This document shows positions 47,576 through 52,525 of a DNA stretch of 64,000 bases, in pieces. The notes under the pieces were generated by a model. The model was not told the DNA's origin. It worked only from the letters and a program-made list of their open reading frames with translations, and did no database searches. The stretch spans positions 124,001 through 188,000 of the forward strand of contig JARIED010000005.1 in NCBI GenBank assembly GCA_029266945.1, written 5' to 3'. The stretch's first letter is position 1. Each line of letters opens with the position of its first letter. This DNA comes from Slackia sp. (GTDB lineage Bacteria; Actinomycetota; Coriobacteriia; Coriobacteriales; Eggerthellaceae). The position numbers were made by a program, and so were the translations under genes.

Positions 47576-50500
47576 CTAGCGTCCGAACAAGCGCGCGAAG
47601 AAGCCCTTTTTCTTCTTGGGCATCTCGATCGAACGGCCAGGCGCCTTGTGCTCGGGCAGGTCGTCGGCGGGAGCACCCACGGGCTCCTTGCGTGCCGCGG
47701 CATATTCGCTCCTCACCTCGACGGCGGGCGTCTTGATCGGCTCGACCGCAGCCGCATCCGTCTCGGGCAGCGGGATCGTCGTGTACGCCTGGTCAGCAGG
47801 AGTCTTCACGTCATCGGCCTCGGCGGCAGGCTCGGCGAGCCCCTTCGCCTCATCGGAGACGGACTCCTCGGCAGGCTTGACGGCCTCGGCGGCCTCATCG
47901 GCTGCAGACGCTTCGTCGGCGGCATCGGTCGCAAGCTGTGGCTCCTCGGCAGGCGCGGCCTCCTGAACGGGCTCTTCCCTCTTCGCGTGGGCGCCCACCG
48001 ACTCGCCCGCCAAAGCGGACGCGCGCACCGTCGACTCGACGACGGCAGACGCTGCATGGGCCGGCACTCGCTCGGCGTTCGCGGCAGGCTCGGCTCCAGG
48101 CTCCGCCTCGACGGCCGCTTCGAGCTCTTCGGAATCGGTCGGCTCAGGCTCGGCCGACGCCTTGCCCTCGTAACGCACGGGCTCGGCTTCCATTTCCATG
48201 TCGATGGCCCTCGCCTTGCGCTCAGGCTCTTTGCCGTAGACCAGGTCGTCTTTCGCCTCTTCGGCCAGCGCTTCGATCTGCGTGGAAAGACGGCCGTGCA
48301 TAACCATGTTCGGAGCCGCGGGGTGCGGAGCGTTTTCGGCGGCCACGTAGGCCTCCTTGATCAGGTGGTCCTGAGCGTCGAAGGGGCGCGCCGTGGGCTT
48401 GCCCGACGCATCCTTCGGAACGAAGTAGCCCAGATCGGTGTAGGTGCCGTCGGATTTCAGCTCGCGCAGCTTCGCCGTGTCGGAAAGCATGGTGTCAAAG
48501 TAGCCGAGCACCTTGGCGCGCAGGCTCGGGTCGTTGACAGGCCAGGCTATCTCGACGCGCTTATCCAGGTTGCGCGTCATAAGGTCGGCGCTGGACAGAT
48601 AGACCCTCTTGTCATCGCCCGCGCCGAACACGTAGATGCGCGAATGCTCGAGCAGGCGTCCCACCACGCTGACCACGCGGATGTTGTCGGTCTCGCCCGG
48701 AATGCCGGGAACCAGGCAGGAAATTCCACGCACCAGCATGGTGATCTTCACGCCGGCGCGGCTTGCCTCGGCCAGCTTTTCGATCACATCCTTATCGGTG
48801 ACGGAGTTCGTCTTCATCATGACTTCCGCAGGCAGGCCGGCCTTGGCCTTCTCGATTTCGCGATCTACCATGATGCACAGGCCCTGTTTGATCATGAACG
48901 GTGCCACGAGCAGCGTCTGATACGCGTCGGTCGCGCTTTCCAGCTGCATGCTGCGGAAGAACATGGCCGCATCCTGGCCGATTTCCGGATCGGCGGTGAT
49001 CATGGACAGGTCGGTGTAGAGCTTCGCCGTCTTCTCGTTGTAATTGCCAGTGCCGAGCTGAGTGATGAACTGAAGGCCGTTTTCGGAACGACGCGTAATC
49101 GCACAGATCTTGCTGTGCACCTTGTAGTCGCGGAAGCCGTAGATGATATTGCATCCGGCCTGCTCGAAGCGCTGCGACCATTCGATGTTGTTGCTCTCGT
49201 CGAAACGCGCGCGCAGCTCGAACAACGCCGTGACCTCCTTGCCGTTTTCGGCCGCGGTGATCAGGGCCTCGGCCAGACGCGACTGGCTTGCCAGGCGATA
49301 CAGCGTGATCTTGATGGACAGGACGTCGGGGTCGACCGCGGCCTCCTGCAGAAGGTGGACGAAGGCGTCCATGGTCTCGTACGGATACGACAGCATGACG
49401 TCTTTCTGCAGCACCTGGTCGATGATGCTGCGGCCGCGCACCAGCTCGGCCGGCCACTGGGGGCTTGCGGGTTCGTCGACGAACAGAGCGGCCAGTTCGC
49501 AGCCCACGATGCTCGGCAGCGCGAACGCGTAGCCCATGTCGAGCGGCAGACCCACGGAGTAGATCTGGTTGCGCTTAAGCCCCAGGCGCTTGGCCAAGAA
49601 GCGCTCGGTCACCGTCGACAACGGGCGCTCGCTTTCCAGGCGGACGGGCGCCAAGCGGCTGCGCTTCTTCAGGATGCGCTTCATATGGCTACGGAAATCC
49701 TCGTCGTATTCGTCGGATTCCTCGTAGGTGTCGAGGTCGGCATTGCGCGTGACCTGGATGACGTTGGCATGCTTGACCGGGTACATGCTGAAGATCTTAT
49801 CGGCCACCATTTCGAGCGCATGCTCGAGCAGGATAAAGGAATAGCCGCCGTTCTCGCTGTCGAGTTTGATGGTACGCGGACAGTTCAGCGGCATGGGGAT
49901 GATGCCCATGACCACGTCTTCGGCCGCCTTCGCGCGATACGCCTTGCGGCGGTCCTTCGACATCTTGGTCGACTCTTCGGGCAGGTCGTCAAGGCGCACG
50001 GCGATGTAGAGCGCGCCGTTTTCCAGATGCGGGAACGGATGCGTCGCGTTGACGATCTGCGGCGACACGAGCGGTAGCACGTTGGCCTTGAGGTACTGCA
50101 TGAGCTGGTCGTGCTGCTTCGGCGTGAGCTCGTCGGGATACAGCTGATGGACACCCTGGGCCTCGAGCTGATGGCGCACGGTGCGGAAGTCTTCGGACAC
50201 CTGCGGCGTCAATTCGCGCACGCGGGCGTACACGGCCTCGAGCTGTTCGGCGGGCGTCATGCCCGTCTTGCTGTCGTACACCGTTTCTTTGGCCAGCTCA
50301 AGATCGAGCAGGCTGCCCACGCGCACCATGAAGAACTCCTGCAGATTGGAGCGCCAGATGGCGATGAATTTCATACGCTCGAGCAACGGAACGTTGGGAT
50401 CGGTCGACTGATCGAGCACGCGCTCGTTGAACGAGAGCCAGGAAAGCTCGCGATTCTGCATGTAGGATTTCGTCTTCGGGCGCCCCTTAGTCTTGACGGC

Positions 50501-50578
50501 CTTCGCTTCTTTGACTCCGGATCCGACCTGGCCTTCGTACGGCGCTTTGTCGGTTTTGACGATTTCGTTGTCGGCCAT
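47576..50578 (-). CDS. ppk1: Polyphosphate kinase PPK1 with 285-residue C-terminal extension
   Basis: Membrane-associated enzyme (1000 aa) making polyphosphate from ATP. The core (about 36-715) shows the N-domain start MQNRELSWLSFNERVLDQS, the N-terminal bundle with FFMVRVGSL, the ATP/His-phosphate region YKVHSKICAITRR, and the second PLD-like segment VYLSSADLMTRNLDKRVEIAWPV. Residues about 715-1000 are an A/E/P-rich, low-complexity tail not found in standard PPK1 (about 690-720 aa), ending in a basic-hydrophobic patch, KKKKGFFARLFGR. GAGGAGGGC precedes the ATG at 50578. It is divergent from a tandem PPK2 gene, with direct repeats in between. Confidence 0.95.
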   Translation of the reverse strand: MADNEIVKTDKAPYEGQVGSGVKEAKAVKTKGRPKTKSYMQNRELSWLSFNERVLDQSTDPNVPLLERMKFIAIWRSNLQEFFMVRVGSLLDLELAKETVYDSKTGMTPAEQLEAVYARVRELTPQVSEDFRTVRHQLEAQGVHQLYPDELTPKQHDQLMQYLKANVLPLVSPQIVNATHPFPHLENGALYIAVRLDDLPEESTKMSKDRRKAYRAKAAEDVVMGIIPMPLNCPRTIKLDSENGGYSFILLEHALEMVADKIFSMYPVKHANVIQVTRNADLDTYEESDEYDEDFRSHMKRILKKRSRLAPVRLESERPLSTVTERFLAKRLGLKRNQIYSVGLPLDMGYAFALPSIVGCELAALFVDEPASPQWPAELVRGRSIIDQVLQKDVMLSYPYETMDAFVHLLQEAAVDPDVLSIKITLYRLASQSRLAEALITAAENGKEVTALFELRARFDESNNIEWSQRFEQAGCNIIYGFRDYKVHSKICAITRRSENGLQFITQLGTGNYNEKTAKLYTDLSMITADPEIGQDAAMFFRSMQLESATDAYQTLLVAPFMIKQGLCIMVDREIEKAKAGLPAEVMMKTNSVTDKDVIEKLAEASRAGVKITMLVRGISCLVPGIPGETDNIRVVSVVGRLLEHSRIYVFGAGDDKRVYLSSADLMTRNLDKRVEIAWPVNDPSLRAKVLGYFDTMLSDTAKLRELKSDGTYTDLGYFVPKDASGKPTARPFDAQDHLIKEAYVAAENAPHPAAPNMVMHGRLSTQIEALAEEAKDDLVYGKEPERKARAIDMEMEAEPVRYEGKASAEPEPTDSEELEAAVEAEPGAEPAANAERVPAHAASAVVESTVRASALAGESVGAHAKREEPVQEAAPAEEPQLATDAADEASAADEAAEAVKPAEESVSDEAKGLAEPAAEADDVKTPADQAYTTIPLPETDAAAVEPIKTPAVEVRSEYAAARKEPVGAPADDLPEHKAPGRSIEMPKKKKGFFARLFGR

Positions 50579-50878
50579 GATGCCCTCCTCGACGCATGGC
50601 TTGCAGAGAGAATTCTTTCCCTTCTAGACTTGCAATTATAGCGTGATGCCTGATAGGAGACGTACGTTGTAAGAATCGTTTGACATCCGTTTGACATCTA
50701 TTTGACGTAGAGCGTCCATTTCGCCTCGAATGTCGGCGCGATGCGGCGAAATGCGCGCGTAAACACGGAGACGAGAGCAATCGACGAATTCGTCCGCGCT
50801 TTTTACGCGGCGGATGCTCACGACAGCAGAAACGCGCGTACACTGGCTTGCAGGCACTATCGAGCGAAAGGAGTCCTC
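50579..50878. promoter_or_regulatory. Divergent ppk1/ppk2 regulatory region with 11-bp direct repeats
   Basis: Three contiguous 11-bp units start TTTGACATC, TTTGACATC and TTTGACGTA (50679-50689, 50690-50700, 50701-50711); a degenerate fourth may precede them (50668-50678). The 11-bp period matches the architecture of Pho boxes. On the minus strand TATAAT (50640-50635) is a likely ppk1 -10 with a poor -35 (50658-50663), which fits activation by a regulator bound just upstream. TACACT near 50837 could serve ppk2. Confidence 0.65.
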
Positions 50879-52525
50879 ATGCTCGAACAGGTAGACCTTT
50901 CAGAGAAAACCCCGAAGGAAACCTACAAGCCTCTCTACGACGAACTTATGGCGAGGCTCGTAGTGTTGCAGCAGCGGGCGCACGCCGCGGACATCGGCGT
51001 CGTGGCGCTGTTCGACGGCTGGGACGGCGCTGGAAAAGGCAGCCGCATCGGCGACCTTCTGTACAACCTGGACGCGCGCATGACGCACGTGCACGTGCTG
51101 TCCACCTTCGACGAAGAGCAGGCCGCGCGCTTCCGCGACATGAAGACCGGCGTCACCGGCTTCGCGCCGCTCATGCAGGAATTCTGGCAGGCCCTCGGCC
51201 CGCGCGGCGACATGACCATCTACGAACGCGGCTGGTACACCGCGGCGGCGCAGCGCCTTCTGTATACCGATAAAAAAAACCATATGCGCGCCTACGAATC
51301 GGCCGTCGAAGAATTCGAGCGCCAGCTGGCCGCGGACGGCTACATCGTGATGAAGTTCTTCGTGCACATTTCCCAGAAGGCGCAGAAGAAGCGCCTGACC
51401 CGCCTGCATGAAAACCCCGACACCGCCTGGCGCGTGAGCAAACAGGAGCTCAAACACATCGACGACTACGACGCCACCTACGCCAAATACGACGAGCTGC
51501 TGCGTCGCACCGATTTCGACTTCGCCCCCTGGACCCTGGTCAACGGCGAAGACAAGCGCACCGCGAACCTCACCGTATGCCGCACGCTGGTCACCGAGCT
51601 CGAACGCGCGCTGGCCAAACAGGCAGACCCCGCCGCCACGGCAGCCGCGGCCAAGGCCGCCGAGAATAGCGCAGGCCTGCTGACCGAAAGCGACCCGCGC
51701 GAACGCAGCGCCGAAGAGACCGAAGCCGTGCTGGCGGCGGCGCATCAGGCGGCCCTCGAACAGAGCGCCCTGGCGCCCGCGCATTCGCGCTTCACCATGG
51801 TGGCCCGCCCGCCGCGCCTCGAAGACATCGACTACACGCTCGCCCTGGAGCGCGAGGAATACCTCGAAGCCCTGAAGAAAGAGCAGAAGCGCCTGGGAGA
51901 GCTGGAGCTGAAGATGTATCGGACGCGCATCCCGCTGATGCTGCTCTACGAAGGCGACGACGCGGCCGGCAAGGGCGGCAACATCAAGCGCGTGGCGCAG
52001 GCGATCGACGCGCGCGCCTACACGGTGTTTCCCAGCCCCGCCCCCACCAAGCCCGAGCTCATGCATCCTCACCTGTGGCGCTACTGGACGCGCCTGCCGC
52101 GCGCGGGCCACGTGGGCATCTACGACCGCAGCTGGTACGGCCGCGTGCTGGTGGAGCGCGTGGAGGGATTCGCGAGTCCCGAGCAGTGGGGCCGCGCCTA
52201 CGACGAAATCAACGAATTCGAGCACGAACTGCAGGCATGGGGCGCGATCCTGCTGAAATTCTGGGTGGCGGTCGATCCCGACGAGCAGCTGAAGCGCTTC
52301 AACGACCGCGAGACCAACCCCGACAAGCAGTGGAAGATCACGCCCGAGGACTGGCGCAACCGCGACAAGCGCCCGCAGTACGCCGCCGCGGTGGACGACA
52401 TGTTCCGCCTGACCTCGACCGCTTACGCCCCCTGGCGCATCCTGGAGTCGAGCAATAAATACTACGCGCGCGTCAAGGCGCTGCACATCATCAACCAGGC
52501 GCTTGAAGAACGCTTGGGGCTGTAG
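50879..52525 (+). CDS. Polyphosphate kinase 2, class II, tandem PPK2 domains (polyphosphate:AMP phosphotransferase type)
   Basis: Cytoplasmic kinase (548 aa) that uses polyphosphate to phosphorylate nucleotides; two-domain PPK2 enzymes usually convert AMP to ADP. Domain 1 (about 15-235): Walker A LFDGWDGAGKGSRIG, lid/Walker B TIYERGWYTAAAQR. Domain 2 (about 310-545): LLYEGDDAAGKGGNIKRVAQ and IYDRSWYGRVLVERVEGF. The C-terminal copy has the sharper catalytic motifs, as in characterised tandem enzymes, where it is the active one. AAAGGAG before ATG 50879 decides the start. It is divergent from ppk1, so storage and reuse of polyphosphate sit side by side. Confidence 0.93.
   Translation: MLEQVDLSEKTPKETYKPLYDELMARLVVLQQRAHAADIGVVALFDGWDGAGKGSRIGDLLYNLDARMTHVHVLSTFDEEQAARFRDMKTGVTGFAPLMQEFWQALGPRGDMTIYERGWYTAAAQRLLYTDKKNHMRAYESAVEEFERQLAADGYIVMKFFVHISQKAQKKRLTRLHENPDTAWRVSKQELKHIDDYDATYAKYDELLRRTDFDFAPWTLVNGEDKRTANLTVCRTLVTELERALAKQADPAATAAAAKAAENSAGLLTESDPRERSAEETEAVLAAAHQAALEQSALAPAHSRFTMVARPPRLEDIDYTLALEREEYLEALKKEQKRLGELELKMYRTRIPLMLLYEGDDAAGKGGNIKRVAQAIDARAYTVFPSPAPTKPELMHPHLWRYWTRLPRAGHVGIYDRSWYGRVLVERVEGFASPEQWGRAYDEINEFEHELQAWGAILLKFWVAVDPDEQLKRFNDRETNPDKQWKITPEDWRNRDKRPQYAAAVDDMFRLTSTAYAPWRILESSNKYYARVKALHIINQALEERLGL

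Follow-up and report, generated by a model that had tools for sequence, protein, structure and literature searches.

A predicted Pho box of 11-bp direct repeats upstream of the polyphosphate kinase gene ppk1 in Slackia

The window, that is, the whole stretch of 64,000 nucleotides analysed here (G000:C9:124001-188000), belongs to a Slackia genome of 1.52 Mb in the family Eggerthellaceae. Two polyphosphate genes are divergently arranged in it. The first, ppk1 (47576–50578, minus strand), encodes polyphosphate kinase 1 with a long C-terminal tail, and its product scored 721.4 bits against the PPK1 model TIGR03705, the cut-off of which is 465.85. The second (50879–52525, plus strand) encodes a tandem-domain PPK2-type protein in which PF03976 was matched in two stretches. 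Its closest model was TIGR03708, polyphosphate:AMP phosphotransferase, with 528.9 bits, just under the cut-off of 547.65; from the domain and model evidence, the product appears most like a polyphosphate:AMP phosphotransferase. In the case of ppk1, the Shine-Dalgarno sequence GGAGGG was read directly at 50583–50588 (minus strand), and a -10 element, TATAAT, lies at 50635–50640 (minus strand), with no -35 element 16–18 bp upstream of it. This -10 element is conserved across species as TATAATTG, which was kept in the five species that carry the box described below and in S. piriformis. The divergent gene is preceded by the Shine-Dalgarno sequence AAAGGAG and by a likely -10 element, TACACT (50839–50844, plus strand), kept in five species. 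The PPK1 proteins of Eggerthellaceae (window ppk1 and L003–L067) had long C-terminal tails that were rich in Ala/Pro/Glu and differed in length. Many of these tails ended in a short basic-hydrophobic peptide, KKKGFFARLFGR in Slackia and KPSLLVRILSKFVR in Gordonibacter and its relatives, and the tail could be membrane- or partner-binding.

Between the two genes, three predicted Pho-box units follow one another head to tail at 50679–50711 (plus strand) with a pitch of exactly 11 bp: unit A, TTTGACATCCG (50679–50689), unit B, TTTGACATCTA (50690–50700), and unit C, TTTGACGTAGA (50701–50711). All three were predicted from the pattern, the matrix, and the relatives. The unit word is TTTGACATC / GATGTCAAA, of which GATGTCAAA is the reading on the ppk1 strand, and the third unit agrees with the nine-base word at seven positions. 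An earlier note had described the divergent genes with the array between them, units starting at 50679, 50690, and 50701 exactly 11 bp apart, and a ppk1 TATAAT without a good -35, and reading of the sequence confirmed each of these points. Pho boxes made of at least two 11-nt units have been described for E. coli, Bacillus, Corynebacterium, Sinorhizobium, and Streptomyces, the word varying from species to species (PMC4415409), and the three direct repeats at ppk1 have this form.

For the searches, YTGAYN6YTGAYN6YTGAY was used as the three-unit pattern and the reversed pattern as the control. Patterns were searched throughout the own genome, and the matrix ranking covered the window (about 128,000 positions). 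Allowing at most one mismatch, the three-unit pattern occurred at two places in the own genome, the ppk1 and pstS promoters, both without mismatch, compared with one place for the control. The search that the earlier note had proposed, for 11-bp-spaced units near phosphate genes, thus led to ppk1 and to the pstSCAB-phoU-response regulator-histidine kinase operon, which is the only other place of the three-unit pattern, and to nothing else. The exact two-unit pattern was found at five places, four of them in the ppk1 and pstS promoters (control, none), and both of its exact matches in the window stand in the ppk1 array. Taken alone, the loose two-unit pattern with up to three mismatches matched four times in the window against 1.8 expected, which was not significant. 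In 12 Slackia genomes, three units without mismatch were found at seven places, six before pstS and one at the ppk1 of the window (control, one), and the exact two-unit pattern at 36 places, compared with six for the control. Two-unit matches of 21–23 bits in G004 and G005 (L245, L251) were set aside, as they were not beside recognisable phosphate genes.

A matrix made from the two central units of the pstS promoters of other Slackia, with the own genome excluded, placed 50679 first in the window. With three units, the Slackia pstS matrix gave 31.8 bits at 50679 and 2.8 bits at the next separate site, and a matrix from non-Slackia Eggerthellaceae also placed 50679 first in the window (27.5 against 12.7). 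As the non-Slackia matrix with two units did not separate the ppk1 site from three others in the window, the matrix evidence rests on the three units and the Slackia matrix.

The pstS promoters of eight Slackia genomes hold four 11-bp units in register, in which TTTGAC reads towards the gene and the last unit starts 16 bp before TAGAGT or TAAAGT. Similarly, 17 further Eggerthellaceae pstS promoters hold four units, the cores of which follow the type CTTTAC - TTTGAC - TCNNACA - TTTGAT. In both sets (8 arrays from Slackia and 17 from outside it), the last unit starts exactly 16 bp before a -10-like hexamer, which outside Slackia is mostly CATCAT. Since the pstS arrays had been chosen by their best pitch-11 score, other pitches were compared. 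In the Slackia pstS upstreams, 11 bp alone stood out, with 21.4 against 15.1 for shuffled sequences, and in those of 24 other Eggerthellaceae, 11 bp gave 19.3 against 15.1 (sd 0.19), while pitches of 7–10 and 12–16 bp gave 14.9–16.3. The pstS array was weaker or absent in several Eggerthellaceae genomes (e.g., L218 and L220), and a similar array was present in one genome from another family of the same order. As for PstS itself, PF12849 was matched in swapped order in the Slackia genomes (L137:967-1857 in the own genome, and other pst loci), with profile positions 128–267 followed by 3–125, as if the protein were circularly permuted.

In four other Slackia genomes, paralogue a of the PiT phosphate transporter has boxes of the same kind (22–31 bits), one of which was recovered blind through the pattern search. 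No box was found at PiT paralogue b of the own genome, which is its only PiT, or of S. faecicanis. At L272 and L274, three-unit boxes of 24–25 bits lie at about -250 of pit paralogue b and read away from it; these perhaps belong to a divergent gene. The Na/Pi cotransporter gene nptA was rejected as a third target in the own genome, as its best match falls within a conserved dyad and not a direct repeat. In five Slackia genomes (L184:3370-3425, L126, L127, L129, and L130), the dyad GACTTTGCA...TGCAAAGTC with a downstream TATACT precedes a Na/Pi cotransporter gene with PhoU domains, and this dyad resembles an operator for a different regulator.

In the case of ppk1, the box was kept in a two-unit form in four other Slackia, namely, S. 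faecicanis, two Slackia MAGs, and G008. Across the window and these relatives, it reads G(T/C)CAAATAGRT(G/A)TCAAACG, and GTCAAATAG (ppk1 strand), which spans units B and C, is the core common to the four other species. The distance from the box to TATAATTG is 34–36 bp in all five species, and the sequence between them diverges while the box is conserved, with nothing like a -35 element present. No box was found at this place of ppk1 in several other Slackia species, and in a matrix scan most other Eggerthellaceae ppk1 promoters were without one. The suggestion of the earlier note that the word is the Pho box of this lineage is supported by its presence at ppk1 in four other Slackia and its enrichment before pstS and pit. 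Upstream of the Senegalimassilia ppk1 (L021), an A+T-rich site scored 21.9 bits, with no divergent PPK2 seen, and is a weak lead.

Relative to S. faecicanis, units A and B are an 11-bp tandem duplication. The extra copy, GATGTCAAACG (ppk1 strand), is exact, and its immediate flanks are identical. Three exact units before ppk1 were absent from every other genome examined, and the third unit, seen in the one assembly of the species, may be polymorphic or result from misassembly.

The pst operon of the own genome is ordered pstS-pstC-pstA-pstB-phoU-response regulator-histidine kinase, with genes that overlap or adjoin; pstC, pstA, and pstB were named from reading of their translations. The regulator, a protein of 244 aa encoded at L183:5533-6267, is of the OmpR family, with PhoB as its closest NCBIfam model and M. 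tuberculosis RegX3 (2oqr) as its closest solved chain, and the kinase is PhoR-like. A PhoB-type regulator and a PhoR-type kinase are linked to phosphate genes, with the family identity taken from domains. As the two proteins scored below the NCBIfam PhoB and PhoR equivalog cut-offs, the regulator is termed PhoB/RegX3-like. Its recognition-helix region, TRTVDAH[IV]QTLRKK, varies among seven Slackia genomes at the I/V position only.

As the word is otherwise found only before the phosphate-uptake operon in the own genome, polyphosphate making is very probably under the switch of the phosphate-starvation regulator. On the sequence evidence, the array is likely to be a Pho box that the pst-linked PhoB/RegX3-like regulator binds, activating ppk1 when phosphate is short. 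It would form a head-to-tail site for a PhoB/PhoP/RegX3-type regulator encoded in the own pst operon, and each 11-bp unit, about one helical turn, would accommodate a single DNA-binding domain. Under phosphate scarcity, the kinase would phosphorylate the regulator, which would then bind the four units before pstS, the last of which starts 16 bp before the -10 element, and the units at about -51 to -83 of ppk1, of which the relatives have two and the window has three. At ppk1, the bound regulator would recruit RNA polymerase to the TATAAT promoter that is without a -35 element, activating from this distal site perhaps via the alpha subunit. In this account, we infer the binding of the regulator, the activation and not repression of ppk1, and phosphate limitation as the signal. 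A wider proposal is conceivable but doubtful, namely, that the distal inverted array (about -51 to -83) drives ppk1 and grows by duplications of single 11-bp units, with a promoter strength tunable per protomer, and that the whole family Eggerthellaceae shares the word as its Pho box.

The geometry of the ppk1 box requires consideration. The classical arrangement, in which the box lies beside the -10 element and replaces the -35, was found at pstS (16 bp), whereas the ppk1 box lies 34–36 bp from its -10 element, is reversed relative to the pstS and pit boxes, and is about 26 bp farther away. With this opposite direction and this extra distance, activation of ppk1 could not use the pstS geometry. 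This non-classical placement limits a claim of classical action and not the identity of the word. The direction of the units also raises the reading that the box serves the PPK2-type gene, alone or jointly with ppk1, as TTTGAC reads towards this gene just as it does towards pstS and pit. This reading is unlikely, since no conserved -10 element was found on that side: at 16 bp from where the last unit begins, the species have CATTTC, CGCTAC, CGGGGG, or CATATG, and TACACT lies 122–251 bp from the box, varying among the five species, whereas the ppk1 -10 element is at 34–36 bp in all of them. The box was also rejected as a set of -35 elements for the PPK2-type gene, as no -10 element lies at a fitting distance. 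With a constant spacing to the ppk1 -10 element and a variable one to that of PPK2, the box is hence tied to ppk1 and not to the divergent gene. The term polyphosphate divergon used in the earlier note is too strong, as the spacing is conserved towards ppk1 only.

The regulator might bind and yet repress ppk1, or both genes, as the orientation is reversed and the place is unlike that at the activated pstS promoter. Such repression is rather improbable. At about -51 to -83, the site is upstream of the core promoter and does not cover it, and a ppk1 promoter without a -35 element fits the need of an activator. Moreover, ppk is among the PHO-box genes of Streptomyces, and induction of Ppk under phosphate starvation is said to occur in most bacteria (PMC4415409, PMC7866108).

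Activation of ppk1 by the pst-linked regulator also has to be weighed against use of the word at both promoters by a different OmpR-family regulator. The own genome has eight matches to the OmpR-type DNA-binding domain, and the pairing of regulator and site thus rests on operon linkage. A different regulator is nonetheless highly improbable, as phosphate is the common theme of the sites before pstS, pit, and ppk1 and the regulator gene sits inside an operon preceded by the box. A chance origin of the repeats, or of three sigma-70 -35 words, is a reading prompted by TTGACA being the -35 consensus and by the loose two-unit pattern not being rare in the window. It has a negligible probability and was in practice refuted by the Slackia pstS matrix and the genome pattern searches, as the three-unit pattern occurs at two genome places only, the other one before pstS, the box is kept in five species while its surroundings diverge, and no promoter-like -35/-10 pair was found.

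Compared with known systems, the kind of switch is familiar. The PhoP boxes of Bacillus subtilis are TTAACA-type repeats, in which several units of a TTxAC-type word stand in front of activated genes, as in Slackia. The E. coli PhoB box has the same 11-nt pitch, and at pstS it ends just before the -10 element and replaces the -35 (PMC4415409). Its word, CTGTCAT (PMC4415409), is not matched by the Slackia unit, which shares TGTCA alone, on the ppk1 strand; at the Slackia pstS, unlike in E. coli, TGTCA falls on the other strand, and the four-unit array is rigid. In Streptomyces, PhoP boxes are also tandem 11-nt units of an actinobacterial OmpR-family response regulator, with PHO boxes at pstS and ppk (PMC7866108, PMC4415409), but the word there is GTTCACC (PMC4415409) and that of Slackia TTTGAC. 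In contrast to Streptomyces, the regulator and kinase of Slackia are in the pst operon, and the ppk1 units are reversed and distal relative to the pstS boxes. The statement of the earlier note that the word is not the E. coli or Streptomyces consensus thus holds for CTGTCAT and GTTCACC, with the qualification that TGTCA is common to E. coli and Slackia. In the case of M. tuberculosis SenX3-RegX3, RegX3 is the closest solved relative, and the Slackia pair differs in lying inside the pst operon.

In the literature searched, outside which most subscription papers fell, no Pho box of Coriobacteriia and no paper on an Eggerthellaceae Pho regulon was found. The Eggerthellaceae version of the word therefore appears undescribed, and the ppk1 placement of the Slackia box is unusual. 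For these common gut bacteria, a Pho-box consensus can be offered as CTTTAC - TTTGAC - TCNNACA - TTTGAT, in which the last unit starts exactly 16 bp before the -10 element, and ppk1 and a PiT transporter join the likely regulon. Moreover, the Slackia species with zero, two, or three ppk1 units are a natural series on the origin of tandem regulator sites, and the same series bears on whether activation is possible from a Pho box that is distal and inverted.

In S. equolifaciens and a sister genome (L006, L059), other words were observed between ppk1 and PPK2. TTTTACGCGAATTTKAC lies there in the opposite direction with 17–19 bits and overlaps TAAAAT on the other strand, and TTTTACGCGAATTT(T/G)AC reads towards ppk1, far from it. 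It is possible that the intergenic word of this type is a separately evolved box.
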